From assembly GCA_030374765.1 (NCBI GenBank), contig JARGXX010000068.1, positions 3,348,001 through 3,412,000 of the forward strand: DNA of 64,000 nt, in the 5' to 3' direction. This document shows, in pieces, positions 502-45,405 of this stretch. Every line of letters begins with the position of its first letter. The stretch's first letter is position 1. A program made the position numbers and the translations under genes. The notes beneath the pieces are model-generated. The model was given only the letters and a program-made list of their open reading frames with translations, searched no databases and was not told the origin of the DNA. Source of the DNA: Agarophyton chilense (Eukaryota > Rhodophyta > Florideophyceae > Gracilariales > Gracilariaceae).

Positions 502-3324
502 TCATTTCATGCCGCAGTCGTTCAAAATCAAATTGGAATCGTCGGCTTCGTCGATAATCTCTTCGGAAACAGTTAAGATTTGTCTCGGGAAGACGTTATT
601 ATCAATGTTTACACCTTTTAGCAGTTTCCGAAGCGTACCGCTCGCTCCACATGCACGTACGTCCACCATTTCCAGCTGGGGAAGAAATTTGAACAGTTCT
701 GAAAAGCAAGCGACTGTAGCTTGTGGATCGTCCAGCTCTAGGAAAGCCGTGGGACAACAGCGATTATTCAAGACAAACGAAAGTTTTTTCACTGGACTAA
801 ACATTTTTTCAGTTTGGGGATTCTTTCGCATGAGTCTTAAACTGTTTACAAGATGCTCCATAAATGAGTTCGGCAACAAATTGTTTGAAACATCGAATAG
901 CTCAACTCTGAACGCATTCAGTAGAAGTCGAGCCATTGCGAAGGCAGTTGCCTTCGATTGTCGACCAAGAGCATTCTTACTGACATTCACGTTCTTTACT
1001 GACGACAATGATCCAGTCTCACTCAGAGCATCTGCCAGAATTCGAAGAGCATGTCCGGAAAGTCCAGAACATGACAGATTAATTTCCTTGAGGCAATGTA
1101 GATTGGAAGGCGAGACGTATGAACGCAATTTCAAACAGTCGTAAGCGCTGGAAGTTACGGTAGGATTGAAGCTCAGATTCAAATGAACTGGAAAGTCTTC
1201 GCCACATTTTGATAAGGTCTCGAAAACAGTTGAGATGTCGGCGTTGCTGAGAAACATACGAGACAAATTGAGTCCCAGCGGAACTTCTGAGTGTTCATCG
1301 CATGCATCTCGAGCAATTAAAGCCGAAGAAAGTGCTCGCAATGCCCTAACAATTCTCTCTTGCACGCGCGTTGTCGGACTTTGTCGCGCTCCACATATCT
1401 TCTTGTATTCTGTAACTAGATCTGTCACTCCCTTGAATCCAAATGAACGTCGATCTGCCAGAATAGTTCCTCCGTGAGAATGTGAGTGGGAGTGGTTCCC
1501 GCTACAATTCTTAGAGCCAATGCTGGAGCAACGGTCCTTTTGATGACGCTGACGCCTGTTGTCAGAGAAGTGTCGACTAGATTCATCACACACGCGCATT
1601 CTGTGGGGTATCGCAGTTGCCGGTTGAGTAGATAATACCATAACAGACTTCTCTCCTTTTCTGGATGGCACATCGTGAACGAGAGTGTGCGTCTCGGAGG
1701 TGTGGCAGACAGTTTGATATGCTGAACTCATTGCATCGAAATTACCTAGTGCTGGAGCCTTCCCTAAGTCCTCGTTGCGATTATTAAAGATGCTGTAAAT
1801 GTCAACTTCGGTTTGCTTTTCTTCAAAAAGTGGATGTGGCTTAACGCTCGCTCTCGCCTTTTTCATTTCTTCGTAGATGAGTTCTAGGTTGATTTGTGCT
1901 CTTTTGAAGATCCCTTTGTCTGCAGCTTTCTCAGCGAAAAACATACTCTTCTGAAGAGCGTCAATCGCCTTTTGCTTGTTCCCAAAGTCATCCAAGTACA
2001 CACCAAGATTGCACCATGCCTGCGCTTGACCGGCATCATCACCATCGAAAACCGCAAGTTCTCGCGAGGCCCACTTCACTGCTTGCTCGTACTTGTTCAT
2101 CTTCCACATGGCTTCCGCAACATTGGCAACAGCGCTATTGTGAACCGGGCTCGGAATGTCGGTAACAGCTGTATTGCAACCGAATTCATCGACCAAAAGG
2201 AAGTACCTTTTTAACAGTTCCGCCGCTAGTTTCCATTTCTTTAAGGTAAACGCAAGATTCCCAGCTGTCAGTCGATGCCTTGCTTCTTCGATAAAGTTCG
2301 ATTCCGTTTCTGATTCGGCAGCATTCCGCTGTGCCGTTGCCAACTGCCTGTGCATCTGCTCATATTCAATCATTTCTTGTTCTACCACCGCCAAGAACCT
2401 CCGGGCTTCATCTGCGGCATCTCTAGTAGCGGCAATGAGAATAGCTCTCTCTAGAGCCTGTTTAGCGCCTCGATAATCCTGTGTCTCACGCAAGGCCACT
2501 GCCAATTTCCGGAGAGCATCGCTTTCATCAGGCTCATCACCTGCTTGTCTCGCCATTTGAACCCACTGTCGAGAGTAAAACTGACACATACGCCAATCGT
2601 CCTCTTCGCCAGCTTCTTCAGCTAGATTAGCCATAGCCCTTAAGAAGTTTGGCATGTCATTGACTCGTTTAGCATTTAAAACAACAGCATTCAACATGAT
2701 CTTGGCCTTTTTCTTCTCGCCCATGCCGCTCAAAGCAATGGAAAAGTTGACCGCCAAGCCATGTGTCATAACGTTTCTATCGACCGAGAGGGCACTGCCG
2801 ATACAAGGGTCAATGCATTCAATGAGCTTGGCAGCATGGATGCAGCACTGGGCGGCATGCGTGAACGCAGAAACTCGCTTCGTTTCCATGGCAAGAGCCA
2901 GTGCGCTTTGTGCGATTGCAGCAGATGCGGCCTGACGTTCTAAAGAAGCCGAAGGATTTTCTATAGCGCGCGCAATCTGTAGGGCCTGCCTGTGTTGCTT
3001 ATGAGCGGCACGGATGACTTCAGCCTTGTCGGTAATGAGATTATCGTGTGCGTCAACAAGTCGATCTAACTTTAGAATGACATCCCCGCAGCGACGGTAC
3101 GCGATAGCCAGATCAAGTCTATGCTGGAAGTTGTTCGGGTTGGTGTCTACGAGTCGCTTGCAAGCGGCCTTTTCGAGTCGGTGGGCGTTGAGCGCATGGC
3201 GGTAGCGGCGCGCTTGTAAGTAGGCAAGGCCCAAGTTGTTGTACAACTTTTGCGCTTCAGAATCATTATGATCCTCAAGGTTTTCAAGCTGGCGTTGGAG
3301 CTGGGCAATATCGTAGCGCTGCAT
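502..3324 (-). CDS. TONSOKU/TONSL-like TPR and LRR repeat protein
   Basis: A single-exon 940-aa protein starting at an ATG (3324-3322). The first ~500 residues are helical TPR-type repeats, for example the A/LGN-like hairpins around 'NNLGLAYLQARRYRHAL' near the N-terminus and 'WCNLGVYLDDFGNKQKAIDAL' around residue 440. A low-complexity Ser/His linker (about 560-640) follows, then ribonuclease-inhibitor-type leucine-rich repeats (about 690-890, for example 'LNLSFNPTV', 'INLSCSGLSG', 'VNVSKNALG'). TPR followed by C-terminal LRR is the plan of plant TONSOKU/BRU1/MGOUN3 and animal TONSL. Those nuclear scaffolds bind new histone H4 with MMS22L at stalled forks and act in homologous repair. No ankyrin block is seen, as in plant TONSOKU, and the protein is shorter than either family (roughly 1300 aa). 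The family assignment rests on architecture and local repeat style. Another TPR-LRR scaffold is possible. Confidence 0.7.
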   Translation of the reverse strand: MQRYDIAQLQRQLENLEDHNDSEAQKLYNNLGLAYLQARRYRHALNAHRLEKAACKRLVDTNPNNFQHRLDLAIAYRRCGDVILKLDRLVDAHDNLITDKAEVIRAAHKQHRQALQIARAIENPSASLERQAASAAIAQSALALAMETKRVSAFTHAAQCCIHAAKLIECIDPCIGSALSVDRNVMTHGLAVNFSIALSGMGEKKKAKIMLNAVVLNAKRVNDMPNFLRAMANLAEEAGEEDDWRMCQFYSRQWVQMARQAGDEPDESDALRKLAVALRETQDYRGAKQALERAILIAATRDAADEARRFLAVVEQEMIEYEQMHRQLATAQRNAAESETESNFIEEARHRLTAGNLAFTLKKWKLAAELLKRYFLLVDEFGCNTAVTDIPSPVHNSAVANVAEAMWKMNKYEQAVKWASRELAVFDGDDAGQAQAWCNLGVYLDDFGNKQKAIDALQKSMFFAEKAADKGIFKRAQINLELIYEEMKKARASVKPHPLFEEKQTEVDIYSIFNNRNEDLGKAPALGNFDAMSSAYQTVCHTSETHTLVHDVPSRKGEKSVMVLSTQPATAIPHRMRVCDESSRHFSDNRRQRHQKDRCSSIGSKNCSGNHSHSHSHGGTILADRRSFGFKGVTDLVTEYKKICGARQSPTTRVQERIVRALRALSSALIARDACDEHSEVPLGLNLSRMFLSNADISTVFETLSKCGEDFPVHLNLSFNPTVTSSAYDCLKLRSYVSPSNLHCLKEINLSCSGLSGHALRILADALSETGSLSSVKNVNVSKNALGRQSKATAFAMARLLLNAFRVELFDVSNNLLPNSFMEHLVNSLRLMRKNPQTEKMFSPVKKLSFVLNNRCCPTAFLELDDPQATVACFSELFKFLPQLEMVDVRACGASGTLRKLLKGVNIDNNVFPRQILTVSEEIIDEADDSNLILNDCGMK

Positions 3325-7476: not shown

Positions 7477-7637
7477 AATAAATATAATAGCTCTCGCATC
7501 AGAGAACAGAGTCAGTCCTAAGGCGACACCTGAAGAAGGCCCGAGACGCTCTCAAGGTTGAACGCAGTCCCGGAACACGCACGATTGAGATACAGGAACG
7601 ACCTTGGGAGAGCAAAAGCATTACTTTATTTGATTAA
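7477..7637. other. Spacer between repeat R and the antisense-ORF remnant
   Basis: No gene or recognisable repeat is seen. It flanks the 3' end of the decayed minus-strand ORF. Confidence 0.3.
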
Positions 7638-9996
7638 CTAACACCATGACTTCAAAGTTCGCGGAGGCGCGCCAAAAACCAACAGCACTCCCTGGGGCGG
7701 CGCAGGGGTACCTCCGTCGTCTTCATTGGAATCTGCAGGAGCGAAACCCGGACTAGGGTCATCCGAGGAGACAACAGGACCACTATGACCGGCCCCAGTG
7801 AGCCGAGCCCGCTTCTTCGGCGGAGATTCACCTGAAGACTTATTGTCATCATCGAAAGCCTCATGGTCACTCAAATTTAGACCATACCGGTCATTCAAGT
7901 CAGAAGTAACCCTCTGGGAGGTCACTTGGGCATTCTGCTGCAGGGTATTGACCATGGACGTCTTCAGGTCCTGATCCTGTTGGAAAACTGCGGCGTGGCG
8001 CGCCGAGAGACACGCCCGGGAGCAAGCTTCCCTCAAAACTGTCACAATGTCCATCGAGTGTAATACCAACAGTATGGCACACATGACAAAGATCCGAAGC
8101 CGCAGCCGTGATCGAAGCGGGAAAGGGTGGAAATGGATAGGACGGAGTGATATCGACGCCCCGAGTGGACGTTTGAGCCAGCAAATCACCTACAGAACTT
8201 TCGGCCTCGACAATAACCTCGCCAGGGGGGATGTTCACTTGGGCGACTGGCGGCTCATAAGAGAGCTAATTCTGAGGAGCAGCACCCGGAGAAGTTGGAG
8301 GAGGAGAAGCGGTCGGCAACAACACAGCGGATTCGACCGGAGGATTAACACGCTCTACGGGTAGGACGAAGGGACCTTCACTGAAGGATTCTCCATCGGA
8401 CATCCCAGCAGGAACCAACGGCGTGGCTTCCACATCAGGCTCGAAGCACAGCGGATCGAAGCCGATGGCCTTCGGATGATAGTCGGGCACATGGCGCCTT
8501 GGGATATCCGATGGTTGATTCCTCAAAGAATTGGCGGGATAGGCATGAGCGTCGTCCCGACCCTACGGATGTAACGGAATCGACGTGAATGAGTCCGTAT
8601 CGTGGTCATACCAAAAGGAACCCGGGAGTCTTGCCCCACACGACCTGTAGGACATGATCCAAAAGGGCCTCGATCTCCTCGACGTCGAACTGGGTCCCAA
8701 GGACGATATTCTGAATTCCCAGGCTCCTTAGAAAACGGATCATGATGTCCCAGAGCGGGATTACGCGATCTCGAGGACCGGGTATGTTCTCGTCTTACCA
8801 TACCCTCCAATTCTCCAAACGGACATTACCACGTATTACGTATTTCGCGGTATCCAGGAAGGCCATAAGGGACAACACGTCGAACTCAACGAAGAATACC
8901 TGCCAGGAAAGCCACAACCTTCGGTCATTTCCATCGCCCATGAGTTGGGACGATTGGTACGCCACCGCAGACGGCTTGGATACCAAAAGGAGCGGCGAGA
9001 CACGCCAATACATTGCCTATTGGTTCTCATCCTCGTGGGGAAGCAAAAGATATAACTGAAAACGTTTGTCTGCGCTCATGTCCTGAAACTCCACCTGGTG
9101 CCAACAAAAGAAGAACCCCAGGGATTGAAGCAAACTACCATCGGGCTCGTGCATCTCGTTCCAAGAGACCCTATTGGACATCCAAAACAGGCGGTCATAC
9201 GGAGGCCGGAAGCACATAAGCGCCAAGAGGTTGTGACCCGCGGGAGGAAATCGCACATGAGGCGAGATGAAGTCCGTGAATAGGTCCGTAAGGAGTTTTT
9301 TCACCCTTGCCTGGTATTCGGCTTCCTCCTCGCACCGGATGTATGTCATTTCCGCTTGGATGAGGGTGCGACATCGCGTCTCCGAACGCAGATCTACAGG
9401 ACAATGCAACCAACGGTAATACCACGAGACGCTGCGCGCGTTCTTGCTGCTCCTCCGGAAATCGGGTATCTTTGCAAACCTTCGGGCGTCGAGATACATA
9501 TGACAGAACCTTTCGTATTCTTTCAAAGAGGGCGGAAGAATGGCATGACGCACAGTCCGCGGATTCCGTCCGATGGTATGGTCATAGCGGTCCCCGGGAC
9601 GTTCGTAAGCCACTTAGTACCCCGAGGAGCTCCCCGCTTGGTTGTTCGAAGCCATGTTACCACCGCTCACAGGCTGGTCCGCCGACAAATGGATTGGAAA
9701 GCCGACGCAAGTGACATAGTCCGGAGGGAGAACGGCGTATCCGACGGGCTTATGAGGCGAGTTCGGCATCGCGCGCGACCAATGGAGAAGTACCACGTTC
9801 AGAGGACGAGTTGACGGAATCGACCCGAACGGACCGACAGGCGTGAACCACGGTGGACGAAGCGCGGAGGGTCACCAAAGAAAGAACGGAGACTAAGGAC
9901 GGCCCCAATGACCGTCAGAGGAGAAGAAGCCAATGGACCGTCTCGGCAACGCGACGCGAAGATTGCGCCGGCGATGCACCTATGGCCAGCGCTCAC
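7638..9996 (-). pseudogene. Decayed, divergent homologue of the gypsy antisense ORF (element D)
   Basis: Minus-strand coding remnants in several frames: 9613-9017 (198 aa), about 8810-8600, 8526-8266 and 8189-7638. They line up in order with the intact antisense ORF at 43483-45339. The 'WHQVEFQD...LYLLLPH' stretch corresponds to 'RAEFRY...GFLVPYPH', the segment near 8800 to the 'FRIWYIPP' helix, and 'VLPVERVNPPVESAVLLP' to 'VLPVEPSAPFQPVGTT'. As in copies A and B, it lies just inside a polypurine tract and a 3' LTR (10206) on the opposite strand. Function is unknown. Many frameshifts make it non-functional. Homology was judged by eye at low identity but with colinear landmarks. Confidence 0.6.
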
Positions 9997-10190
9997 GACG
10001 CGTGGGAGTTTCAGTCCTTAGGCAAATTAATTGCTCTCCGGCGGCACTGGTCAGCTCACGCTTCCTCGCATCTGCGCAGGCGATGACGACGCGACGTTCC
10101 GTCGCGCCCAATGGTCCTGGGAGCGACTAAGCGCTCACGTCCCCTGGGTCAATCATGAAGAAATCTGGACATCGCCGTGACGGTCGAATC

Positions 10191-10205
10191 TTAAGGAGGG
10201 AGAGA
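10191..10205 (+). promoter_or_regulatory. Polypurine tract of element D
   Basis: The purine run (TTAAGGAGGGAGAGA) ends exactly where the LTR begins with TG, as expected for the plus-strand primer of an LTR retrotransposon. The same TTAAGGAGGG core precedes the 3' LTR of gypsy copy A. Confidence 0.65.
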
Positions 10206-10650
10206 TGTGAAGGAGCGACGGTAACGGTTGAGCTCTGTAAGCCGCCGGGCCCTGAAGGATCTTACAGACGCCACGTGGACTGGTCAACCTCAGGTGGACT
10301 CATGTATATTATTACTTTATTTTAATTGGTGTAATAGAATAGCATTACAGTGCCAGGGAGATCCCAGCGCCTCGCCAGTACTATTTACTTGGCCCGAGTG
10401 ACGCTTCTCCCTTAGAGTAAGGTAAGCACCGTTAGGATACTAAATAACCTCCTATGGTATATTAGTTCCACTAATTGGTCTGCAAACCACCGTTTCTGTA
10501 CTCCAACCTGTAGGACTACGCAGTAAACGCCAGCTCATTGCACCAAGTACTCTGGGAGTGCCGCCGTCCAGGATTCGAACCTTAGGACCCGCTCTACCAC
10601 GCTACCACCGGTCGAGACCAGTAGGCTGACCCCCGAGTCATTGCGTTACA
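10206..10650 (+). repeat. Family-2 LTR (445 bp)
   Basis: Starts TGTGAAGGAG after a polypurine tract and ends CATTGCGTTACA, giving TG...CA termini. Its last ~150 bp are shared in reverse complement by 21978-22128. Its first ~300 bp recur at 11227. It contains a tRNA-like A/B-box segment on the minus strand (about 10563-10620). Confidence 0.75.
10563..10620 (-). other. tRNA-like segment (A and B box) inside the family-2 LTR
   Basis: Read on the minus strand it has an A-box-like D-arm (GGTAGCGTGGTAGAGCGG) followed closely by a B box (GGTTCGAATCC), but no anticodon arm between them. A related copy lies at ~22026-22090 on the plus strand. It cannot be a functional tRNA. It may be a captured tRNA fragment or an internal RNA polymerase III promoter. 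Confidence 0.5.
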
Positions 10651-11226
10651 GAAGAGCGCCGTATCCGACGGGCTTATAAGGCGAGTTCAGCATCGCGCGC
10701 GACCAATGGAGGAATACCAAGACGGGTAGAAGGAAAGATGAAACCGAATCGGGCAGGATGACCGACGTGAGCCCAAATGGACGAAGCGCGCACCGTGGTG
10801 TACGACGAACGACGCGCGTAGGGTCGCCAAAGGAATAGTGGGAAACAGAGAAAGCGGCGGTGACCCCTTCCCCAACCCCCCCCGGTGAACGTACAGTACC
10901 TTAGGTGAATTAATTGCTAACCTGGGGCCAATGGTCGGCTCATACGCACTCATGCCCCCGAGGATTGGAGCGATGCGACGCCCCGTCGCGCTCAATGGTA
11001 TCGAAAGCAACTAAGCACTCACGTACCCCGAATTAGTCAGGGGACGCCTACATGTCGGACACGGCACCGCTCGTATCCAGGCCATTAGGATGCTGATGAT
11101 CACGACGTTCTGACAATTAAGGCAAGATTGGAGATGCACGTCTAGGTCCAATTAGGGCCAGTCCACCAGGAAGGTGTGAGTCAATTAGGACTTCGCCGTG
11201 ACGGTCGAATCCTAAGGAGGGAGATA

Positions 11227-11510
11227 TGTGAAGGAGCAACGCTTAAGGCTGAGTTCTGTAAGCCGCCAGGGCCTGAGGTATCTTACAGACGCCACGTGGA
11301 CTGGCTGACCTTTGCTGGGTATATTTAGATAATTATTTTATTTTATTTAGTGTAATAAGATAGCTTTATTGTGCAAGAGAGATCATAGCGCCTCCCCATC
11401 GATATTTACTTGTCTCGAGTGACGCTTTTTACTTAGAATCAGGTAGGCACCGTTAGGATACTAAATTACCCCCTTTGGTACATTAGTTACACCAATTGGT
11501 CTTCAAGCCC
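11227..11510 (+). repeat. Truncated second family-2 LTR, upstream of the methyltransferase-SET gene
   Basis: Starts TGTGAAGGAGC after a purine tract, like the LTR at 10206, and is similar until about 11510. There the sequence changes to short CCCACCCGCA repeats. The 3' part of the LTR, including the tRNA-like segment, is missing. It lies 85 bp upstream of the next start codon, in the same orientation. Confidence 0.7.
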
Positions 11511-11594
11511 ACCCGCACCCACCCGCACCCGCTGCTCTCTTTCACTCAGGCTCTCGTGACGACCGCCCGTGAGGTTGTTTGAACACGTACATAA

Positions 11595-14500
11595 ATGGCT
11601 CCAGAACCCACGAGAACTTCTTCATCGCCTGCGGCAGACACCTTCAAAATGGGTAAACTGTTTGGTACGGGGGATGAAGTTATCAGGGCATGTCTGGATT
11701 TGCGTGATCGTTACGCATCAACGAGGCGGGAGGAAGATGAGCCGCGAAAAGTGGGGCACACTGCATTCATCGATTTCGCAATTGCCAATCGCCACATCCT
11801 ACCGGAGACCGCGAAGTTTTTTTATACTCTCCTAGGTCCCGACCACACCAATTACACAGAAGATGAGCTCCGAGTTGTAGGAATGAGGGGCTCGAACTGT
11901 CAGAATTATTTCTCGGCGAGGTTGCTGGATATAAGGGATGGGGACCCAGATAGGCGCGTGAGGGACTTTAGGAACGCGTACGAGGCGGTGGAGTTCAAGG
12001 GCATCCCGAAGAATGTAACTTTGACAGAGTTCTTCAAAGGTCTGGATACAACCCGAAAGAAGGCGAGTAAAAGCCGGGCTCCATTCGCGACCGACTTCCC
12101 GACAATGTTCCACAGGTTGCTGTTCCTCATTTGTATTCAGTCGGTCTCTATGGAGAAGAGAAGAGTCTCCCGTAAGCGAAGAAAGGGGGACAGAACCTAC
12201 GATACGCCATTTTCGAAGGTTGCGATTTATGACAAACCAGTAGCTCAGCGTGTGGGCTTTGGTGTGCAGCTCGTCAATAACGCGTGGGACAGCTTCGCCC
12301 AGTATTTGGGATTCCCTGGCGTGGAATTCATGGTTTTGCCCTTTATCCATCTACGATATTCTGATATGCAGTTCCAGGCAATCGGAAACAGAAGGGATGG
12401 GTTCTCTCACAAGGACATGGCCCAACGACTCCTTCCTGATAGAAACCGTACTTTATTGGAGGAGGATGTCGTCCCATGGGCGTGGAACCTGCCGGAGTAC
12501 GTTGACACTCCACTTCGTATGTTGGCCAAAGAGTTTCTCGCTGACCTGCACAAAGTGGTGGTGAATGAGCAGCTTTACTCTATATCAACTCCGGAAAGAT
12601 GGGACGTTCTAAAACCGTTTACATACACTTTGCCTAGAGTGTTTGCGGAGAGATTCGACTGCTTCTCGAACTCTCTTATCTCTACCATCTCGGAATACAT
12701 ATCGCCACTAAAGCTGCGAGGGAGTGTGGAGGTGGAAGTGGTGGCTGCGACAAAGGCGGAACCTACTATGGTTATGGAAGAAGACGAGATAGAAGTTGTA
12801 CCCCCTGAGAAAGATTCGGAGGCTCCGGCGGTGGAGGATGGAGAGGGAGTGGAGGGTGGGACCGGGAATGAGGAAGAGAACATGTGTGTTGGTCAGCATT
12901 CTTCCACAGCTGGACCAAGGTCGGTCAAATCTGAGTCGGAGATGGATAAGCAGTGTCGAATGTACAATTGTTCTTTCGAGAACCTGGTGGAGATTGACGA
13001 GACATTGCGCAGCAATGGGGTCTCTCCGATAGGGAAAGTGCAGTTGGTTCTCACGGACCCGCCGTATAATATACGTGCGAAGAAGAACAGGAAAAACAGC
13101 TGGTACGACGTTCTTAACCGGCAAGACATGGTGAAGACGGCGAAGCTCATCTCTAAACTTCTGCGTCCGGGAGGGCATTTCGTTATATTCTGCGCGATTG
13201 AGCAGGTGAACGAATGGAAAGAAGTGTTGGGTCGAATTGGTGCAAAGGATGAGAATGGACAGAAGAGCAGGTCGTTTGTCGTGGACAAGGTCCAGCTGCA
13301 CTTCATTCGCTCTCAAGGCAATCCGATGCGTAATCCCGGACCTAGTTCGTGCTCCCTGTTTCCCGGAACAGAGTACGCCATTCATGGAGTTCGCAGCGGG
13401 TTGTCCTACGCCGAACAACATGGCATGGTGAACTATGAGAACTTCAGCTATGTACCATCGCGATATCCGGGTTACCATAGCTTGATTGACCAAATGCCTC
13501 CCATGTCGAATGGTGAAACACTTCTATGGAGAAGGAAGAATGCCAAAGGAGCAGTTACGTATCAGAAAGTGCGGGCGGAACAGAAGTCACGCGCTTTGCT
13601 GAAGGAGCTCATCAGCAGGTTTTCTCAGCCAGGAGACATAGTGGTGGACCTCTTCGCCGGAACATTTTCAACGGCCATGGCATGCATGGAACTGGAAAAG
13701 CACCGTCAGTTTCTAGGGTGTGAGCCAGATCCGCAGTGCTTTGCTCATGCGAAGCACGCCGCTACAGTGAAATTTGCGTCATGCATGCGGAACAACGAGA
13801 CAGACATTCATATAACGCAAGATGTTCGGAACGATGTGACTCGAGTGACATGCTTGTTTCCGGACGTCGTCATAACGCGTTCGAAGTCCTGGAAAACACC
13901 TACCGGATTTCCCGAGCATCAGATGTTTCCTCCCCATATCGTCGATTTTCTCTCCTCCATGTGGCAGGATAAGAATATATCGGAGATTGGGCGACGGCAG
14001 GCGCTGTATGAGTGGCCAAGAAGTTTTCAAGGAAAGATGTCACTGTTGGATTGGAATGCTATTCTGGCAGTGGAGGCGACAGTATGTGGTTGTCGGATTG
14101 GAAATGCTGGAGTTGGTGTGTACAAAACACGCCGGGTGATACAAGGTGAGACTGTTTGTTACTTTTACGGGACTTTGGTGTACCATGATCTTTCAAAGCG
14201 GAAGGAAGTTCATAAGGCATACGGAGGGGGGCTATTGAAAGCGAGTGCTGATCGTTTTCGGCAGTACGCGATGGAGATAAGCGTCCGAGGGGAAGTGTTT
14301 CACAAGCTACCAGGAAGAATTAGTGGGGTGTCTCTTATTCCGGTGTGGATTGTCCCTGCTCCATTTTGCTTGGGGGGAACAATTAACGACCCCAAGTATG
14401 TGGAAGGGGATAGGGACAGGGATGCGGTTGAAAACGTGTTAATGAGACGCCGAACTGCAAATGTTCGGGTCATCAGAACTCCGGGGACGGGGCGGACCCC

Positions 14501-14636
14501 ATTTCAGTTGAGAGACTATAGATTGCTTTCTGTGCAAGCAATTCGAGATATAGAAATAGGAGAGAAGCTGTTCGCGGATTATGGGACAGAGTATATCTGG
14601 AGTATGAATAACACGCCAGTCATAGTAATCGATTAA
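11595..14636 (+). CDS. Beta-class DNA amino-methyltransferase fused to a SET domain
   Basis: An intact 1013-aa single-exon ORF starting at ATG 11595 (A at -3, G at +4). Residues 1-~380 are an unidentified, mostly helical domain. An acidic linker (~385-440) follows. Residues ~450-730 are a DNA amino-methyltransferase in beta-class order: catalytic motif IV DPPY (488-491) comes first and the AdoMet-binding motif I DLFAG (685-689) comes after it. Such enzymes methylate adenine N6 or cytosine N4. Residues ~832-1003 resemble a SET domain: GNAGVGVY (836-843) near its start, a TINDP...ANV stretch where canonical enzymes have NHSCxPN, and GEKLFADYG (989-997) near its end. SET domains methylate protein lysines, often on histones. 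The two activities together suggest a chromatin or DNA mark writer. Domain calls are strong for the methyltransferase and moderate for SET. The substrate is inference, as is any mobile-element origin. Confidence 0.85.
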   Translation: MAPEPTRTSSSPAADTFKMGKLFGTGDEVIRACLDLRDRYASTRREEDEPRKVGHTAFIDFAIANRHILPETAKFFYTLLGPDHTNYTEDELRVVGMRGSNCQNYFSARLLDIRDGDPDRRVRDFRNAYEAVEFKGIPKNVTLTEFFKGLDTTRKKASKSRAPFATDFPTMFHRLLFLICIQSVSMEKRRVSRKRRKGDRTYDTPFSKVAIYDKPVAQRVGFGVQLVNNAWDSFAQYLGFPGVEFMVLPFIHLRYSDMQFQAIGNRRDGFSHKDMAQRLLPDRNRTLLEEDVVPWAWNLPEYVDTPLRMLAKEFLADLHKVVVNEQLYSISTPERWDVLKPFTYTLPRVFAERFDCFSNSLISTISEYISPLKLRGSVEVEVVAATKAEPTMVMEEDEIEVVPPEKDSEAPAVEDGEGVEGGTGNEEENMCVGQHSSTAGPRSVKSESEMDKQCRMYNCSFENLVEIDETLRSNGVSPIGKVQLVLTDPPYNIRAKKNRKNSWYDVLNRQDMVKTAKLISKLLRPGGHFVIFCAIEQVNEWKEVLGRIGAKDENGQKSRSFVVDKVQLHFIRSQGNPMRNPGPSSCSLFPGTEYAIHGVRSGLSYAEQHGMVNYENFSYVPSRYPGYHSLIDQMPPMSNGETLLWRRKNAKGAVTYQKVRAEQKSRALLKELISRFSQPGDIVVDLFAGTFSTAMACMELEKHRQFLGCEPDPQCFAHAKHAATVKFASCMRNNETDIHITQDVRNDVTRVTCLFPDVVITRSKSWKTPTGFPEHQMFPPHIVDFLSSMWQDKNISEIGRRQALYEWPRSFQGKMSLLDWNAILAVEATVCGCRIGNAGVGVYKTRRVIQGETVCYFYGTLVYHDLSKRKEVHKAYGGGLLKASADRFRQYAMEISVRGEVFHKLPGRISGVSLIPVWIVPAPFCLGGTINDPKYVEGDRDRDAVENVLMRRRTANVRVIRTPGTGRTPFQLRDYRLLSVQAIRDIEIGEKLFADYGTEYIWSMNNTPVIVID

Positions 14637-14960
14637 AAGTGCATCGCTTTTGTTACTTTACTTCATTGTAGTGTACCAGATATTGTGGGCTTTTACTATG
14701 TTTGTCGCTACATACAACGTCAAAGCGTGACGTAGTACATATGCTAAAGGAAAGTCATGTACACCGAAGGGGAATACTTTTCCAATATCTGGTGCGTTCG
14801 AGGGCATATTTAAAATATCTGAAAAGTTTGGGGGTTTTCTGAGAACACGAAAAGGGTGGAGGTATATTTTTGGAAGCAGAATGTTTCGAAGCTTCTCTCC
14901 CATCCATCGCATTGCAACGCATGGATGACCATACCACGATCGCTCTCTCTCTCTTCAACA
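14637..14960. other. Spacer with an 11-bp perfect inverted repeat
   Basis: No ORF is supported. ACCAGATATTG at 14675-14685 is repeated inverted as CAATATCTGGT at 14783-14793. The spacer should contain the 3' end signals of the methyltransferase-SET gene and the promoter of the next one. A CT run (14943-14955) precedes the next ATG. Confidence 0.5.
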
Positions 14961-16013
14961 ATGGCTCCGAAGCGCAAATCGAGAAGCGAGAACACTAGCG
15001 GGCGCGGTACAAAACCACGGCGGCATGGAGGGGATGCGGAGGGGGGAAGGGACAAGGGGCGTAGGATCCAGGGCGCGAGTGGAGAGAAGGGAGGCGTGCG
15101 CCTGAGAGGTAGATCAAGGCAAGATGGTGGGGAAAGAGAGGCGAGTGGGGGCAAAGGAAAGGCTTTTCGCGCAAAGGAGACGGTGACGGAGGAGAGTGCG
15201 GAGCAAATCACTTCGCGTACGGAGCAAATCACGTCGCCTACGGGAGAGATGGTGCGGAGCGGCGATGGAAAACGGGATGGCGTGCGAAGCAACAGCACGC
15301 GTGTACCTAGAAGTGGATTGCGGGGGAGGGCGAGCAGAGCTCCAGGAAGGACAATGAGAGGGGATGCATCCGAGTGGACTCTAAGTGCTGTACTCACGTC
15401 TTCAGCTGATGTGGAGCCGGTAAATCCATGCTCTGCACCTTAAGGAGGTGAAGAGATTCCGAATGAGAGGACGAAGTGGCGTAAGGAGGGAGAGAGAATG
15501 TTCGTAGAACGTGGATCCCGCCTCAGAGGGGTTGAAGAAGCAGGGGCATCGTTTACGGGTATGAGGGAAGAGGAAGGTGATGATGAGATACAGAAAGGGA
15601 GAATAGAGAGTAGCCGTGGTGGGGAGGGTAGAATAGGTGGACCCAGTAGTGGTCTAATCGCGGGCGCAAGAGTCGTTCGAGAGAGAACAGAAGGAGAGGG
15701 TGTTGGAGTTACCGCGGGGGAACAGGCAGAAAGATGGGAGGGGGCGAACTTGGATTACGTGGAAGAAAGGAGAGAGCGTGCAAGGGAAAAAATGGGGAGT
15801 GTTCGAGTTACAGGAAGAAGAGCGATAGACGAAAGGGAAAGCAGAGAAGTGCATGTGAGTGAGGGGGGAGAAGGGGGTTTGCTGGAGGGAGAACACGTGG
15901 TTCAGGGGAGGAAGGAGATGGAAGAGCAGCAGTTCTTTCTCATCAGGGAGAAGATGTCGAGCGTTTGCCACCGAGGAGAGGGGTGGGTTTGGGAGTTGAA
16001 GGGTTTGAGGTGA
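14961..16013 (+). CDS. Arg/Gly/Glu-rich low-complexity N-terminal region, probably part of the downstream gene
   Basis: From ATG 14961 one frame is open to a TAA at 15443 (160 aa, very basic, 'MAPKRKSRSENTSGRG'). The same frame is then open to 16013. The downstream 524-aa ORF is in a different frame, whose open stretch reaches back to before 15900. This fits a 5' region joined by one or two short introns, or broken by frameshifts, but no donor-acceptor pair could be chosen with confidence. No domain is recognised; the composition (RG, KR and E runs) suggests a disordered nucleic-acid-binding tail. Confidence 0.35.
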
Positions 16014-16039
16014 ACGCAAGGCGAAAGACGCCGGAAGGT

Positions 16040-17614
16040 ATGCGAGTAAAGAGAAACATTGTATTCACAAGGAATAATGATAACGGGGAGAATGCGAATT
16101 TAAATGTCGTGGAGAACGCCGTCCATATAGTAAAAGATGAAGCAAATGATGATGACATAGGTTTGTTGCCGCGGTCGATGCTAATTGAGAAGATGAATGT
16201 GTTGAAGGGACAAATGGGACGTATGAAGGAAGACAGCGACAGTGTGATGGTGGGTTTTAAAATGACCCAAACGGAGCTGGATCGGGCGAGGGAGGAAATG
16301 AAGCAGCAGAATGTGCTGATTGAGAGTTTGAGGGAGGCGTTGAAAGGTAGAATCGCTGGGGAAGGAAGGAGGGAGGGAGGCGTGACGCGGCGACGAAAGT
16401 ATGACATTGGAGTGCAGGAATGCTTTTATGGATTTGCACGTCGTGTGTATGATAGGATTCTTCATTATGCAAAACTGGAGGCATCGGAGCTTTGCTTCGA
16501 CACCGAGAATGTGGGTCGAAGCTGGAAGAATAGAAGTGAGGCGGTTGGGGAGACTAGGGAGGAAAGTATGTTTGTGGTGGGAGGGAAGGAAATAGTTCCG
16601 AGATGTCCAATTGAGGTTTCATATGAGATGAGACCGTATACGCCGTCGACAGAGGGCGGTAGCCATTTGTTGTTGAAACACGTGGTAGAGACTGAGTTAA
16701 TGGGAGTGAAATGGGAGTCGATAAGGGAAGCGGGGAGGAGAGAGGAGTGCGTGGAAAATGTAAGTGCGGATAGGTGCTTGAGACAGAGGATGAAGCAGAC
16801 ATTGAGCGATGTGGTTGGGGTGCGGAAGCGAGCAGCGCGTGATAAGCTGTTTTCCATGCTTGGATATGATTTGATCGCGAAACGAGCTAAGGTGACTGAA
16901 GGGACGGAGCTTTGGGCGGAGTTGAAAAAGCAGATTGAGGAGGCGCAGGAGAAGTTGATGGGGTCGGGGGAGGATCGGAGAGGTAAGCTGTGTGCGTGGA
17001 GAACGAGTGCGATTGAAGATATTACTTATTCTGGATCGAAGGTGTCTGAGAACTTGGAGGACTCTGGTGAGGCAGATATGTATTTTCGAAATCAGGTGTC
17101 GTTGAAAGTGTTGGAGGAGTTTATGGGCTACGCGGTAGAGAGTCACAGAAATGGAGAAAGGCAGTATGCGGATGGGACGGTGATGCATCTTGCGCGACTT
17201 GATGCATGGATTGGATGTGTGGTGACCACGATGGATAGAGACGTTGGGCGGGGAGGCCAAAGGCAACTTTTGTTCTCGACGCTGTTTGGGACGTTTCTGC
17301 CACTGGCTGTTGAGGACATATTGAGGGTTGCCTGGAACATGGTGAAGGATGAGTATGCTGAGGAGTTTGAGAATGATGGATTCTGTGGAGGGAATCGTAG
17401 AGATGTGAGTGGGAATAAGGAGAGAATCGCGACGGTTGGGCTATGGATACCGTCGAGAGAGAAAATCTATCTGGCGATAAAGGAGGAGTTTTTCATGGAG
17501 AATCTCACGAGAAGACTTGGAGCGGTGTTAGATTGCTATATAGCGTCATGTGGACCAGAAGGACCACGGTTCAAGAGCTTAGCGTTGGGGAGTAGGCAAG
17601 GAGTGGGAGAGTGA
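16040..17614 (+). CDS. Unidentified protein with coiled coil, possible partner gene of the CACTA-type transposon
   Basis: 524 aa counted from the first in-frame ATG (16040); the frame is open further upstream without an ATG. Residues ~55-110 are heptad-like and charged ('EKMNVLKGQMGRMKEDSDS', 'DRAREEMKQQNVLIESLREAL'), probably a coiled coil. The rest is a mixed alpha/beta-looking region with no recognised motif. It converges on the transposase gene with only 87 bp between stop codons, and shares its extreme purine bias on the plus strand. Plant CACTA elements often carry a second, DNA-binding gene (TNPA), so a similar role is possible. That is inference from position only. Confidence 0.5.
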   Translation: MRVKRNIVFTRNNDNGENANLNVVENAVHIVKDEANDDDIGLLPRSMLIEKMNVLKGQMGRMKEDSDSVMVGFKMTQTELDRAREEMKQQNVLIESLREALKGRIAGEGRREGGVTRRRKYDIGVQECFYGFARRVYDRILHYAKLEASELCFDTENVGRSWKNRSEAVGETREESMFVVGGKEIVPRCPIEVSYEMRPYTPSTEGGSHLLLKHVVETELMGVKWESIREAGRREECVENVSADRCLRQRMKQTLSDVVGVRKRAARDKLFSMLGYDLIAKRAKVTEGTELWAELKKQIEEAQEKLMGSGEDRRGKLCAWRTSAIEDITYSGSKVSENLEDSGEADMYFRNQVSLKVLEEFMGYAVESHRNGERQYADGTVMHLARLDAWIGCVVTTMDRDVGRGGQRQLLFSTLFGTFLPLAVEDILRVAWNMVKDEYAEEFENDGFCGGNRRDVSGNKERIATVGLWIPSREKIYLAIKEEFFMENLTRRLGAVLDCYIASCGPEGPRFKSLALGSRQGVGE

Positions 17615-17701
17615 TAAGGTACGGGGGGATAAGGGGGTAAGGAGGTGGAGCAAGATGGGGGTCGGCTATGGAAGAAAAGCAGCGGTGACTATTTTATTGG
17701 A

Positions 17702-20700
17702 TCATGTGCCTTGGGAGGTATTATTATGGGTGCCACCCAGTGGTGGTGTTGTGCCACCAGTGGTGGTGTTGGAGAAGTAGTGCTTGGCAGTTGGGTCTCG
17801 GTAGAATCTGTTGAGGTAAAATCGATGGAAGCGACAGTGCAATCGAGGGGTGAAGGGGGGTGCGGGGTAGTTTTGGCGAAGTACATGAACGGGGCCCAGA
17901 ATGGAAGAGGATGGTACGAGGCCGAACCAGGGGGAGACGTTGTCGGAGTTGGAAGTGTTTGAGATAGGAAGGGGGTGGGCGGTGTGGTTTTGTTCGTCGT
18001 CTGTTGCCCATCGGAGGCAGATGCAATTGAGAGAGACATCGACTTGATCCTGGGGTGGAACGAGTTCGAGGAACTGAACGAAGGCGAACTCGTTATGAGT
18101 GGAAGGGGAAGAAGGGGTGGTGAAGCGAAGAAGAGAGTTGAGCTTGCAGACCCAGGCGGTGGGAGTGGGGTTGGAGAAGCTGGAACCGGCAACGAGGATG
18201 TGGGAGAACTTTGGGGTTTTAGAGGGACCGAAGGAGGGAGCAGCGAAGATACGTTGAATGAGTGGGAGAGGGGGATCTTTGACGGCGAGCTCGTTTCGAT
18301 CGGCGATGTAGTCGTCTAGGGTTGGGGTGAAGCCGCCGACGACGTATGCGGAATTGACGAATGTGAGACGGGTTTGGCGGAGAGTGGGGGAGTCCTGGTT
18401 GAGAGCTAGTGTTTCGAGTGTGAGTGTGACGAAGGAGGGGAGTGCGAGGGTTCCAATCTGTGAGATGATGGCGATAGTGTCTGGGGAGAAGAGGTCCTGA
18501 AGGGAAGAGATTCTTGAGTGGGGGTTTGCTCGAAGGAATTTGTGAGCGGTGATGAGATCGGAAAAGGAGGTGTGCTTGCCATCACGGACGAAACCTGGTT
18601 TGCGGGCTTGGAAGGGAGGAGGAGGGGCATGGGAGGATGAGGTGACGGAAGGATCAGCGGAGAGAGAAATCCAATTGTTGACGGCATCGGAGAGTTCGAT
18701 GGCACGAATGGTTTCGTTGTGCGCGGTGGGTCTGCGCTTGGAGGTTCGGGAGTAATGTGCATTGAAGAGGGTATGGGCTTGTTCGAAGATGCCTGCATTG
18801 TTGAAGTGGAGACCCCCAAAGCGTCGAATGTCGTCTACGATGTGATCGAGGAGGTGGAATTTGAGGGTGCCAAGGTTGGAGGTATGGTATGGACCGAGAA
18901 TATCGACAGCTCTGTGCTTGAAGGAATGGATTTGGGAGGCGAGTTTGGCAAGACGAGAAGTGGTCCATTCGGGGACGGAGTTGTAGCACATGGAGGTGAG
19001 CAGGAGGTCTGTGTACTTGGGGAAGACGGTTGTGATGGGAGCGGAATTGGCTTCGTCACAGCAGCGGTCGAAGAAGGCGCCGATGAAGGGGAAGAACATG
19101 TCGAGGGCGCGGTAGTCTTTTGCTTCTAGCATGCTGCGGACGCCGTCAGTTGTGAAGAAGCCGTTGAGGGACTGCCCGCTTTTGGAAGTAGAGAAGTCGA
19201 TGTGGAGGCCGGTAGCTGGGGAATGATTTTCGATGGCGGTGAGGATGAAGTTGGAGTGCTTGAGGATGGAGGTGCGTACGGAGTGGAAGGAACTGCGGGA
19301 GTTTGTGGAGCTGATGGTGGTGAAGAGGTGTTCTGATCTGAGACGTTCGATGGCGGCGAGCTTTATGAGCTTGGAAACGCCGAGGTGGAAGTTGTGGAGT
19401 GGTTCGAAGGGGAAGATGTTGTATGGGGTGAGGAGGGGGGTGATGTTGAAAAGGGGGTAAGACTCGAAGAGGGAGGGGTATTTTGCGAGGGAGAGGGAGT
19501 GGAGTGCTTGGAGAGCTTGTTCCTTGAAGTTGCGCGAGACTCTGGGCTTGCGGGCGAGGAGAGCTGCTTCGGAGTCCTTGAGGAGGGAGAAGTGTTTGTT
19601 GCGGGCTGCAAGGGTGAGGGGAAGAGATCGAGGGGGATGGGCGTGAGAATGTTGGTGGAGTTGTGAACGAGGGACAGAGCATCTGTGGCAGGTGTGCTGG
19701 GGGCGGGTGCCGTGGGAGATGGCGAGAATATCCTTTGCCTCGGGAATGTCTGCGCAGTAGCTGGCGATGATGGGGTGGCATTGACGAAGAACGCCGTCTG
19801 CGTCGCGGAAGGGGAAACCGGGGAGGGCGGAAGAGAAGAGAGGTTGAAGGAGGGAGGAGATGGTCTGCTGTATGAGTTCCATTTTTGTTTGGCGGGGGAT
19901 GGAGGAAGAATGAGTGATGATATCTGCATCTGGAGAATGAGTGATTGGGGTGAAGGAGGTGGGAAGATAGCCGAGGAGTGTGAGATTGTCGGAGATGCAT
20001 TTGCGGCGAAAGGAGTCGGAGAAGTTGAGAAGGGTGATGTGGAGGGGTAGGAGGTGATGGAAGAATATTTGAGAGAGGTAGAGGACTTGTCGGAGTAGAT
20101 TTGGACGAGGCCGATGAAGGAGTCGATACCGGTGGAGTGAGGGAGATGCCAGACGATGTTATCTTTTGTGGACTGCATGATGGCGGTCTTAAGTGCGGGG
20201 ACGACTTTTGAGCCGAGGGTGGCTGCCATGGGGTGTGCGAAGGCGGGGGAGCCGGAGGCGGATGTTTGGGAGATGGGGTGGAAAAAGGTGTTCTTGAAGT
20301 GTGCGAGGGCGAGCTGTTGTTTGAGGACATGGATTGCGTCTTTCTGGAAGAGGGTTGCGGAGAAGCGTTTGTGGGGATCGAAGATGGTGGAGGGGGCGAA
20401 ACCAATGGACCTGATTCTCTGGTGAAAGAGGTCTGCCTGGAGCTCGAGGCATTGCTTTGCGGAGGAGACTGAGTTCTGGAATGTTGATTCGGAGAAGTGG
20501 GGATCATTAAGGAGAGTGATGAGTTCGTCAGCCTTTCGTTGTCCAAGCTTGGAGGCGATGGAGGAGATGTAGAGGACCATTTTCTCCAGGTGGGGGCTGT
20601 CGAGGGGGGGAGTGGAAGGAGGGAGGGGGGAGAGAGCGAGAGAGGAGGGGGAACCGAGAGGAACAGTGGCGACGTGGATGGCGTCCTGGGTGTGGAGGGA

Positions 20701-20964
20701 GAGAGAGAGCTGGTCTTGGAGGTAGGATTCATGGTGTGCGAGATGGACGTTGTCGGAAGGGTGATGTGAGGGAGGAGGATGCGGGGGGAGTTGTGAGGTG
20801 GACTTGTGGCGTTTTGTGCGGGGGGGGAAGTTGGGTTCATTTCCGCCAGGGGAGAGGAAGCGCTTGTTGGCGGAGAGGCGATGAGGGCACCTTCTCTGGT
20901 GCCGCTGGAGGGCGGGGATTTCTCGGGCGAAGAAGGAGCAACCGTTGAAGCAGCAGGAAGGCAT
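17702..20964 (-). pseudogene. Plavaka/CACTA-type (CMC) transposase with one frameshift
   Basis: The ATG at 20964 opens with a C2H2-like zinc finger (CCFNGC...HQRRC). The protein continues through a helical region to about 20047. The rest reads in another frame to 17702, about 1087 codons in all. Diagnostic stretches are 'LTLLGYLP', 'ASYCADIPEAKDI' with 'CHRCSVPRS' soon after, and 'LKFHLLDHIVDDIRRFG' followed by 'FEQAHTLFNAHY', as in fungal and algal Plavaka/CACTA transposases with the DDE catalytic core. The frameshift falls in a C-run (plus strand 20044-20049), where one base appears missing. The reading continues conserved on both sides, so it is a recent mutation or an assembly error. The C-terminal part is Pro/Thr-rich. 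Terminal inverted repeats were not found. Confidence 0.8.
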
Positions 20965-21081
20965 GGTGGGTGGAGGAGAGGTGGTGGGAAAGAAGTTGGT
21001 AGGGGGTGTAGACGGAGAGAGAGTATGGCGCACACAGGGCACGTGACAGGGGAGGGCGGTGGAGAATAATATAGAATGCAA

Positions 21082-21356
21082 AGCACGTGAGGTCTGCCAG
21101 GTCAGGCTGCGATTCTATTGCGATTGATATGGATGGTACTAAATGTTCAATTTCTATTTTGAGGTCCATTTTGGGACCGGTTGTTTGTACTAATCTGTCA
21201 ATCTAGAGCGCAAAAAGATTGAAACTGCTCCTGCACCACTTCTCTACTTTTACCTTTAAACTGCGGCGACAGAAAGATTCAAGCTAGTTTTACCTCCATC
21301 AAAACTAGAAAAACTGCAGATATGTGCTAGTTTTCCTTCCCATACAAACTAGCACT
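21082..21356. repeat. Cluster of CTAGTTT motifs in alternating orientation
   Basis: CTAGTTTT (21284-21291) pairs with AAAACTAG (21301-21308). GTGCTAGTTT (21324-21333) pairs with AAACTAGCAC (21346-21355), a perfect 10-bp hairpin with a 12-nt loop. Four copies of one motif upstream of a CACTA-type transposase resemble subterminal binding sites of such elements. No matching cluster was found on the far side. Confidence 0.5.
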
Positions 21357-22128
21357 AATGAACGAATGAAAATATTTTCGGAAATTAACACCTCCAAATA
21401 TGGATAAATTCACGGGTTTTTCGGTCATTTCAATTCGTCCTTTTTTGACCACTGAACTAGCATTCCGAGAACACTGACGGAGTCGCACGTCCGTAATGTA
21501 ATCCACATGGGCTGAGCAGAGCTCACGGAGAACGGGCAAGAGAAGGTAGGCAAGCCCTGCGGGCATGTTTTCTCTAATTAGTTCGGTCTGGTGGGTTTCT
21601 CCTTGAGGTTTCCTTGGCCTAGAGGTGGCCTTGGTGAGGCGTTCTCGTAAACGCGCTGTCACCGTGGGTTCTCGGCGAATATTTCAGGGCTATCCATGGG
21701 GGTCAGTACTTCTTGCGGCTGGCTCCTCGTGCTCCTGCGGTCGCTAGAGGTATCAAACTGAGAGTCAGGCGACACCGCCGGCATTGTAGTCGCACTTCGT
21801 CCTGCCATATAAGTCCTATGATCTGGTCGGTTGGGTGTGTTTCCTGCATCCATAATGGCGGTTGCTTCTGTACTTTTGGTCTGTTGGAGAATTAAACCAA
21901 AAGTTAGAATCAAGATACTTCTTCGTTTCAGTGGTCCGTTCAATTATTCCAAAGGCTTCTAAGTCGGGAGACCAAAATGTAACGCAATGACTGGTGGGTC
22001 AGCGTACGGGTCTCGACTGGTGGTAGCGTGATAGAGCGGGTCTTAATATTCGAATCCTTGACGGCGACACTCCCAGAGTACTTGGTGCAATGGGCTGGCG
22101 TTTACTGCGTAGTCCTGCAGGTTGTATC
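21340..22128 (-). mobile_element. Fragment of a family-2 gypsy-type element: LTR end, primer site and gag start (element E)
   Basis: Minus strand. 22128-21978 matches the last ~150 bp of the LTR at 10206-10650 and ends ...GTTACA. It is followed by TTT and a primer-binding site TGGTCTCCCGACTTAGAA (about 21973-21956), then by a short open stretch ('NRPDHRTYMAGRSATTMPAV', 21943-21659) continued in another frame to ~21340. This is the 5' end of an LTR element. The LTR itself is 5'-truncated where it meets the integrase of the neighbouring element at ~22130. The gag fragment has no recognised domain. Confidence 0.6.
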
Positions 22129-37792: not shown

Positions 37793-40700
37793 TTGGGAGT
37801 CTCCCCTGCGGGAGGGGCGTCTTCTAAGCCGGAGTTGAAGACGGCCGAGGCGCTCCAGCTTCGCTCCCCAGCTGTGACTATCCTTTCAATGAGAACGGCT
37901 GACACCGACGTTAACTCGGGATACTTTAGTGTCCTCCGTCGCCCGTGGATACGGTCCCGTAATCTCCGTATTCCAGATCGAGTTGTGGTAATGGCCAAGC
38001 GGAATTATAAAGTATTCGCCGACTTCGGCCTGTCCAACCAGTTTATGGTTCGTCAAATATCTGTCCTGGATACAGGAGCCGCTCCTAACTTAATTCATGT
38101 TGAATTGTTACCCCGCTGCTCCCGGTTCAAGTTCGTACCGGTCCACGTTTGGATATCGCCGATGCGAACAACAACCCGCTACGGACACTGGGTACAATTT
38201 CCCTCATGGTTAGGTTAGGCTCCTATCTCGTTCAGCTAGAGTTTATTGTATGCAAGTCACTTGCAGCACCAGTCATACTGGGTTGTGACTTTTGCGACCG
38301 CTTCGTGGAAGCCATCCGTCCTCGGAATAGAACTGTGGAACTCGAAGACGGGTCTACGATCCCAATTGTTCGTAAACCCTTACAGGGAGCAGCGCGAACT
38401 CGCGTTCCTCTCCCTGTCGCGCAGGAATCTGTGAAGAAGGACCCGGTGTCTACACGGGTAAAGGTTGCGAAGTCAGTGGCTATCCCGCCAGAAACCCAGG
38501 TTTGGGTCACAGTTGTTACCAAACAAATTGGTGTGTATGTGGTACAAACGAACCCGTCTCTGTATACGCGGCGTCAACTCGCCCTTGCGAATGGGGTTGT
38601 CTCCGTGGAACCGGATAAACCTTTCAAGGTTTTGGTAGCCAACTTTGGAAAGACAACGCAGCATTTGGTCAAACACCAGATCCTGGGTTCTGTTCTTCCA
38701 CACCCGCATGCGGTCGTACCTACAAAGATCTCTATCGCAGAGGTCCTTGGTGTGGCGGACCCTAAGGAGGGGGGGGACACTGCCGAAATCGCGGAAGACG
38801 GTGAGCATACGACTGCAGCTCCACACGCTGAACACTTTAAACCTCAGAAGGTTGCGGCCCCTATCACTGGAGCAGACCAGACGGATCCTGTTCAGTAATT
38901 GGAGAAATGGGATCTCAACCATGTACCCGCATCTCATCGGGAGAAGCTGAGGCACATGCTTTGTGAATTTACCCCCATGTGGGATGGTTCCCTTGGAACT
39001 ATTGGGATTACAGAACACCGCATCGACTTGTTACCGAACACTCGGCCTATTGCCCAACACCCTTACAGGGCTGGACCGAAAGCTCGGGAAGAGGAGAAAT
39101 CTCAGGTGGAGAAGATGCTTAAAGCGGGCGTAATTGAACCTGCCCAGTCCGCTTGGGCCTCACCAGTGGTGTTAGTTCCGAAACCGGATGGATCGTGGCG
39201 TTTCTGCATCGATTACAGACGCCTGAACGAGGTAACCATTAAGGATGTGTACCCGATCACTCGGATGGACGAATACATCGACTCCCTTGGGAGCGCTACT
39301 GTTTTCTCTACCCTCGACGCCAATTCGGGCTACTGGCAAGTCCCTATTAGGGAGGAAGATCGAGACAAAACGGCTTTCGTGTGTCATCAAGGACTTTTCC
39401 GATTCCGGAGGATGCCTTTTGGGTTGACAAATGCCCCCGCAACGTTTCAACGGGCGATAGACATTCTGTTGGCTCCCTTCAAGTGGAGGACGTGTCTAGT
39501 GTATTTAGACGACATTATTGTCTTCTCCAACAACCCGGATGACCACCTCGTACACGTCAGGGACGTAATTAAGATACTCCACGACGCGGGAATCACCTTG
39601 AAACTCAAGAAGTGCGAGTTTTTCACCGATTCGGTTAAGTATCTGGGTCATATCATCCGTCCCGGACAGCTTTCAATCGATGAAGTACGAGTGAAATCCT
39701 TGAAGGAAGCAAAACACCCGAAAACTCAAACGGAGTTGCGATCCTTCTTAGGTCTGTGTAACGTGTATCGCCGATTCGTCCCGAGCTTTGCGGATATTGC
39801 CACCCCCCTCAACAGGCTCCTGACGAAGGGACAACCAGTTGAACTGGAACCTTTTGGCGACGCGGAAGCGTCTGCCTTCACGGCACTGGTGAATGCCGTA
39901 ACATCACCGCCAATCTTGGCTCTACCCAATCCTGGGCTCCCTTACGAAGTGGACACCGATGCTAGTGCAAACCAAGTAGGGTGTGCACTGTTCCAATCCT
40001 CTGAGGATGTTGAACGTCACCCTATTGAGTACTGGTCACGTTCCCTGAATATCCATGAAAGGAACTACTCGGTCTCCGAGAAAGAATGTTTAGCAGTTGT
40101 GTGGGCCTTGGCTACACTTCGCCCCTATCTGATGGGTACTCGTTTCAAAGTCCATACGGACCATGCATGCTTGCGTTGGCTCCTGGAGATCTCCGAACCC
40201 TCGGGCCGCCTTATGCGCTGGCGTCTCCGACTGTCGGAATTCGACTTTGAGATCCTGTACAAGAAAGGGAAGCTGAACACTCAGGCTGATGCACTATCCC
40301 GCTTGGGAACCACAGCGGAAACGGAACCCTACGAGGACGATGACATCCCATGTTTTATGGTATCAGACCTCGAGGAAGGAGCTCAACCGCTGACGGATGA
40401 TGTTTGTGACGATATACTCGTCAACGAGAGTCTGGATTCGCCGACCGGCTCTTTTATACATATCTCTCCAGAGGAGATGATACGCGAGCAACAGCTCGAC
40501 CCATTCTGTACACGGATTCGGGCTCGCCTCAACGGAGGATTTCAGTTACCTTTCGAGGACGACGATCAGGGTTACCTAATCAGGACCGTTGGACCTCGCC
40601 CGAGGATAGTGGTGCCGCACACCCTACAACAGAGGTTATTACACCTCACTCACTATGTGAAGGTTGGCGCCCACCCCGGGGGAAGAAAACTGTACCTCAC

Positions 40701-45339: not shown

Positions 45340-45405
45340 TGGGAGAGCAGCATATATAGCGACCGGAACGCGAGACACCCGCGGCTCGGAATGTTCTTCC
45401 TCGTC

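Follow-up and report, generated by a model that had tools for sequence, protein, structure and literature searches.

A transposon-borne fusion of a putative DNA amino-methyltransferase and a SET domain in the red alga Agarophyton chilense

A gene of Agarophyton chilense that joins a putative DNA amino-methyltransferase to a SET domain belongs to a mobile element, a Plavaka-type DNA transposon that has multiplied recently in the genome. We propose with a probability of about 0.6 that the fusion protein acts as an epigenetic writer of this selfish DNA transposon, and that its paired marks would determine the chromatin state in which copies of the element lie. The genome examined comprises 79.8 Mb in 135 contigs, and the window is the 64,000-nucleotide stretch C68:3348001-3412000.

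The fusion gene and its product

The original prediction was an intact 1013-aa open reading frame (ORF) with both domains, and translation of the window bears this out. The gene has the following parts:

11595..14636, + strand: methyltransferase-SET fusion gene, 1013 aa, single unbroken frame
11595..12722, + strand: mostly helical N-terminal domain, residues 1-376 (structure model, pLDDT mostly >85; homolog alignment)
13038..13751, + strand: beta-class DNA amino-methyltransferase domain, residues 482-719 (Pfam N6_N4_Mtase, E=3.1e-18)
13056-13067 and 13647-13661, + strand: DPPY and DLFAG motifs inside the methyltransferase domain
14109..14585, + strand: SET domain, residues 839-997 (GxG, YG, IND, NV and DYG motifs; Pfam PF00856; fold)

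Assignment of the first catalytic half to the beta class was borne out by the N6_N4_Mtase match, the position of DPPY before the AdoMet motif, and a methyltransferase fold in structure comparison. When the protein sequence was compared with solved structures, seven PDB rows fell below E=0.01, all of them DNA methyltransferases (best 5hek_A, E=8.7e-10). We scored 7989 candidates for homologs and found 40 at E<=0.001, with 22-49% identity to the window protein; one of them comes from Chondrus crispus. A profile scan matched N6_N4_Mtase in all 41 family rows, and across these rows the PP of DPPY, GGH, EQK and D.F.GT either do not vary or are conserved at 90% or more. AdoMet motif I reads DLFAGTF in the window protein and thus departs from the canonical FxGxG. 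At least 62 IMG/VR loci and two loci on GTDB contigs matched the query, all within residues 441-743; among the matches listed, the SET part was unmatched in both collections.

The SET half is less clear in the single sequence. The proposed HMM search gave a match at residues 839-997, but its score of 15.0 bits (E=0.033) lies below the curated Pfam cut-off of 22.4 bits. At the level of the family the SET assignment holds, with Pfam SET at E<=0.01 in 31 of the 41 rows (the other ten fall short). Among the 25 PDB rows that a profile built from the 41 rows matched at E<=0.01 were SET enzymes as well as DNA methyltransferases; the first SET row was KMT2C (1.9e-5, a weak match, as is that to KMT2D), followed by KMT2D, EZH2 and KMT5A. 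Foldseek and VIA-align searches with the full-length model (pTM = 0.58) returned methyltransferases alone among the matches listed. Because the methyltransferase domain dominated these structure matches, the SET region was folded separately, and the resulting model has a SET fold, as the structure-prediction check had called for. The fold matches of this model include repressive-type enzymes such as G9a/GLP.

Of the NHxxC..PN and catalytic Tyr motifs of SET enzymes, the first N, the second N and the Tyr are kept, and the His is replaced by Asp. For an alignment of 34 rows picked for having SET, seven of the 40 homologs (P0019, P0022, P0023, P0025, P0026, P0028 and P0037) were left out because their SET domain looked degenerate or incomplete. 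These 34 rows show no variation in GxG, in the G of YG, in two N or in the Y of DYG; numbered from residue 766, the invariant residues are W42, G74, G76, G94, N166, N191 and Y231.

Three other explanations were rejected. Two genes run together are discounted by the single frame and the presence of both domains in 31 of 41 rows, and chance resemblance to SET by the family profile and the fold. Bacterial contamination was discarded as well, as the element sits among Ty3- and copia-like ORFs (identified by eye) in an 80-Mb genome.

To compare the histories of the two halves, we used 41 of 42 rows, with one second-family protein (see below) included and P0028 left out. Pairwise distances of the methyltransferase and SET halves were correlated (Spearman rho 0.725; none of 1000 permutations reached this value), and the two trees share 17 of 38 splits. 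The correlated distances and common splits point to one old fusion whose halves have stayed together. Among copies within the genome, pooled pN/pS values (12 copies, 66 pairs) were 0.78 for the N-terminal domain, 0.46 for the methyltransferase and 1.07 for SET; in the five copies without stops they were 0.95, 0.54 and 1.02. Decay after insertion inflates all such values; they suggest that in the recent past the methyltransferase was constrained and SET was not. The case for a SET function is made from its long retention across species.

The Plavaka-type element and a second element family

Two roles had been offered for the protein, writing of both marks at one locus or protection of a mobile element; the mobile-element setting holds, as a high-copy Plavaka-type transposon carries the fusion gene. 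Its features, in the window and in full-length copies, are as follows:

11508..21479: copy of the Plavaka-type DNA transposon (18.7 kb at full length), truncated on its 5' side (copy comparison)
15965..17614, + strand: 549-aa ORF, possibly coding (pN/pS 0.94, 10 copies)
17702..19882, - strand: 726-aa ORF for the C-terminal transposase part (Plavaka, Pfam PF18759, E=1.1e-11)
19883..21081, - strand: N-terminal transposase part in another frame, with a C2H2-like finger seen by eye (ORF list)
21457..21479: right terminal inverted repeat CTAGCATTCCGAGAACACTGACG (common right end of copies)
L095:203-3889, - strand: ORF of 1228 aa that lies divergently to the fusion gene in full-length copies
L073:2575-3264: palindrome array (inverted repeats on TGTCGGCCGACA) that separates the fusion gene from the divergent 1228-aa gene

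Eleven further copies share the stretch 11508-21479, with long pieces 96.4-98.8% identical; they occupy ten other loci, two of the copies being on C77. The right end lies at the identical base in all ten copies whose right end was within the stretch compared. The right end of the window copy is complete; on the left, the element breaks off 87 bp ahead of the start codon of the fusion gene. The copies on C86 and C10 are full-length, are 98.4-98.7% identical over 18.7 kb and extend 8.7 kb further left; the copy C68b carries an internal deletion. The C86 and C10 termini are inverted, reading CGTCTGTGTTCTCGGAATGC and, inverted, CGTCAGTGTTCTCGGAATGC. The reverse complement of CTAGCATTCCGAGAACACTGACG shares 22 of 23 bases with CGTCTGTGTTCTCGGAATGCTAG, the left end of the C86 copy. 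For the C105, C100, C135 and C25 copies, a left end was not found within the stretches compared.

Plavaka transposons are described as making target duplications of 2 or 3 bp, and PlavakaB as ending in 5'-CATCA..TGATG-3' (PMC12730594). Here, four of the five copies with both ends read are flanked by 2-bp duplications (TA in three, CG in one); the C68b flanks, ta/ca, give no matching 2-bp duplication. The left end CGTCT is two bases off CATCA and the inverted right end, CGTCA, one base off, and the C25 copy reads CATCA at that place.

The inverted repeat 10504-10650 / 21978-22124 was considered as the element boundary and rejected, since other copies place the right end at 21479 and the left-hand cut at 11508. 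Another repeat family lies on both sides of the truncated element (7488-11509 and 21978-22124); it has inverted 147-bp arms, and an 83% match to it occurs beside the C135 copy. At C77:802000-811999, two element copies stand head to head, with some 0.6 kb between them and a palindromic 5' region in common. Elsewhere in the window, two very similar Ty3-like polyprotein regions (38899-45378 and 55789-63490, by eye) run in opposite orientation, each beside a 631-aa-type ORF that is unbroken at 43483-45378 and split at 55789-57685, with a copia-like remnant between them (53071-54507, by eye). A 940-aa tetratricopeptide-repeat protein at 502-3324 on the - strand (TPR_12, E=1.7e-8) is probably encoded by a host gene.

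From 231 first-look candidates, at least 45 copies of the fusion gene were scored in the genome, including that of the window, and the C-terminal halves of the others are 93-97% identical to it. According to the match table, the matched range is free of stops in 13 of the 45 copies and holds at least one stop in 32, indicating that most copies are decaying. The transposase of the window copy is broken in frame: over 19951-21081, each of the nine other copies compared shows one or more 1-nt length changes relative to it. In C86 the transposase is a single 1087-aa ORF with a C2H2-like finger at its start (by eye), and Plavaka frames are unbroken at 1087 aa or more in other copies. The pN/pS of the transposase ORF is 0.68 (10 copies). 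A convergent Plavaka domain lies 2.5-5.1 kb downstream of the fusion in 39 of the 45 copies and is absent in six. Conversely, 123 of 235 Plavaka candidates were scored as matches, and 55 of these have a convergent PF01555 match within 9 kb, so many Plavaka copies are without a detected fusion. We found 25 transposase homologs; no contig common to these and the fusion homologs was found, with sizes compared by eye.

The main ORFs of the C86 copy, in a list that omits overlapping antisense ORFs, encode 274 and 248 aa (+), 1228 aa (-), the fusion of 1036 aa (+), 350 and 524 aa (+) and the transposase (-). The 549-aa ORF of the window gave no Pfam match above cut-off. The 1228-aa ORF likewise matched nothing in Pfam above the cut-off, nor anything in NCBIfam or, at E<=1, in the PDB; scoring of 7993 candidates yielded no homolog at E<=0.001. 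By eye, its protein shows a ParB-like DGHHR and an HxD...H pattern as in 2-oxoglutarate dioxygenases, which the searches did not support. Exact copies of TGTCGGCCGACA number one to nine per locus at ten loci (nine in C86, C10 and C12), and no such array is present in the window copy or the second-family locus. The palindrome array is a candidate common control region of the divergent genes.

A second element family in this genome also makes use of a fusion of this kind. PF01555 gave 116 matches, 30 of which were sorted into a second family by match span and open frame. The stretch C10:1-26999 holds one unit cut by the contig start and one whole unit, offset by about 12.04 kb and 99.9% identical over 11.2 kb, plus a third stretch that is partial and includes just the helicase gene. 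The second-family fusion matches N6_N4_Mtase at 2.1e-16 and keeps DLFAGTG at the AdoMet motif; its SET match (1.3e-5) passes the Pfam cut-off with 26 against 22.4 bits. This fusion shares 34% identity with P0001 and 59% with P0003. The adjoining gene of 1847 aa, whose sequence was read piecewise in two copies, matches OrsD (3.5e-7), DEAD (2.8e-12) and Helicase_C (2.6e-10), and is of RecQ type (PDB RecQ 4q47_A at 5e-21).

These units lie close to contig ends. With the left end counted as the near one for the nine contigs of unknown extent, 27 of the 30 second-family matches have a contig end within 25 kb, and 27 of 30 point inward. Exceptions by distance are C92, C21 and one C103 match (48-69 kb from the end); C32, C89 and C87 are small contigs with outward orientation. 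As a yardstick, four of 28 first-family copies on contigs of known extent are within 25 kb of an end. Contig breaks at repeats are disfavoured as the whole cause of this bias because the orientation is common to most units. Repeats of the CCCCTAAA type begin C88 and also follow the helicase gene in the C10 units. The second-family unit looks like a telomere-linked helicase element.

Proposed role of the fusion protein

In the writer model, the protein, made from any intact copy, would bind DNA via its methyltransferase half and methylate adenines in element DNA; the DPPY motif favours N6A as the methylated position, with N4C as the alternative. The SET half would methylate lysine on histones nearby, and the paired DNA and histone marks would fix the chromatin state of element copies. 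We give slight preference to a permissive, anti-silencing effect over self-silencing and over a control of transposase binding. We count in favour of the writer model the copy number and Plavaka setting of the gene, the copies free of stops, the conserved residues of both domains and the correlated distances of the two halves, and also that KMT2C/2D are the best SET profile matches and that 6mA is described as accompanying permissive chromatin in many eukaryotes (PMC12695648). Counted against it are the SET pN/pS near 1, the ten rows short of E<=0.01 for SET and the seven homologs with a degenerate or incomplete-looking SET, the His to Asp change, DLFAGTF and the pTM of 0.58, as well as the weakness of the KMT2C/2D match together with the G9a/GLP fold matches.

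Alternatively, the marks may be repressive and hold the activity of the element down to a tolerable level, a form of self-silencing or dosage control that we regard as possible on analogy, at clearly lower odds. The bdelloid N4CMT, a beta-class enzyme with a C-terminal chromodomain encoded by an allelic pair of genes, puts 4mC at transposons, with SETDB1 as a proposed partner (PMC8885841). The stops in most copies and G9a/GLP among the SET fold matches fit such a role. However, no chromodomain or chromodomain-like reader was found among the Pfam matches of the 1013-aa protein at E<=1, and the solved-structure profile matches comprise KMT2C/2D, EZH2 and KMT5A but no SUV39-type enzyme, which is weak evidence.

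We hold it similarly doubtful that the methyltransferase alone matters and SET is a passenger or a non-catalytic binding module. This could explain why pN/pS is 1.07 in SET versus 0.46 in the methyltransferase, why SET is degenerate or weak in some homologs, and the NH to ND substitution. Yet GxG, N and Y are retained in all 34 rows picked for having SET, and the second-family SET exceeds the Pfam cut-off.

That the fusion is a host gene for genome-wide methylation, with a single-copy ancestor in other algae and merely picked up by transposons, is improbable: the Chondrus crispus homolog does lie on a 58.7-kb contig, but 39 of 45 first-family copies stand beside a transposase and the second family is repeated too.

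Returning to the writer model, a broader version is clearly more tentative. One mobile protein would write a bacterial-type base mark and a histone lysine mark at the same place, giving a self-contained chromatin state, and the module would be shared by cut-and-paste and chromosome-end (telomere-linked helicase) elements. It might even provide the main DNA methylation of a host in which no C5-methyltransferase was detected: PF00145 had no match in this genome, where introns could hide such a gene, and the control matched in 10 of 14 genomes.

Relation to known systems and significance

The closest parallels are fungal transposons (Plavaka, Kyakuja, Zisupton and others) that carry TET/JBP genes (PMC12730594). 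As described there, the Plavaka transposase group is among them, a DNA-modification enzyme sits inside the transposon, and one kind of gene is common to unrelated element types; the enzyme there is a dioxygenase, whereas here it is a putative writer, an amino-methyltransferase fused to SET, in an algal host. According to the same source, oomycete HarbingerS and MuDR elements carry SET genes (PMC12730594), so that a SET histone methyltransferase is likewise encoded by a transposon, but with other transposases and no mention there of a fused DNA methyltransferase.

Dinoflagellate and charophyte retrotransposons carry their own DNA methyltransferases (DNMT; PMC5890265); unlike the present elements, these are retrotransposons with C5-cytosine enzymes, and the abstract makes no mention of SET. 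The bdelloid N4CMT differs in having a chromodomain reader in place of a SET writer and is not described as a transposon gene (PMC8885841). In Amoebidium, large Plavaka-flanked repeat blocks likewise carry extra, intron-poor genes, but the named cargo is tyrosine recombinases and the term 'SET domain' is absent from the paper's wording (PMC11244446). A survey of 6mA across eukaryotes from 2025 deals with MT-A70 enzymes, and its main text has no word beginning with 'red alga' or 'rhodophy' (PMC12695648). The original prediction knew of no described protein with the methyltransferase-SET combination, and no report of it was found in searches of open-licence PMC papers either.

Transposons are known with single chromatin-modifying genes; a fused writer of DNA-base and histone marks would, if true, be an unusually direct case of a self-encoded chromatin state. 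The fusion also offers a clear test of whether parasites, and not the host, write 6mA or 4mC in a genome of this kind. Two element types with the same module, one of them near contig ends, link transposon biology to subtelomeric chromatin.
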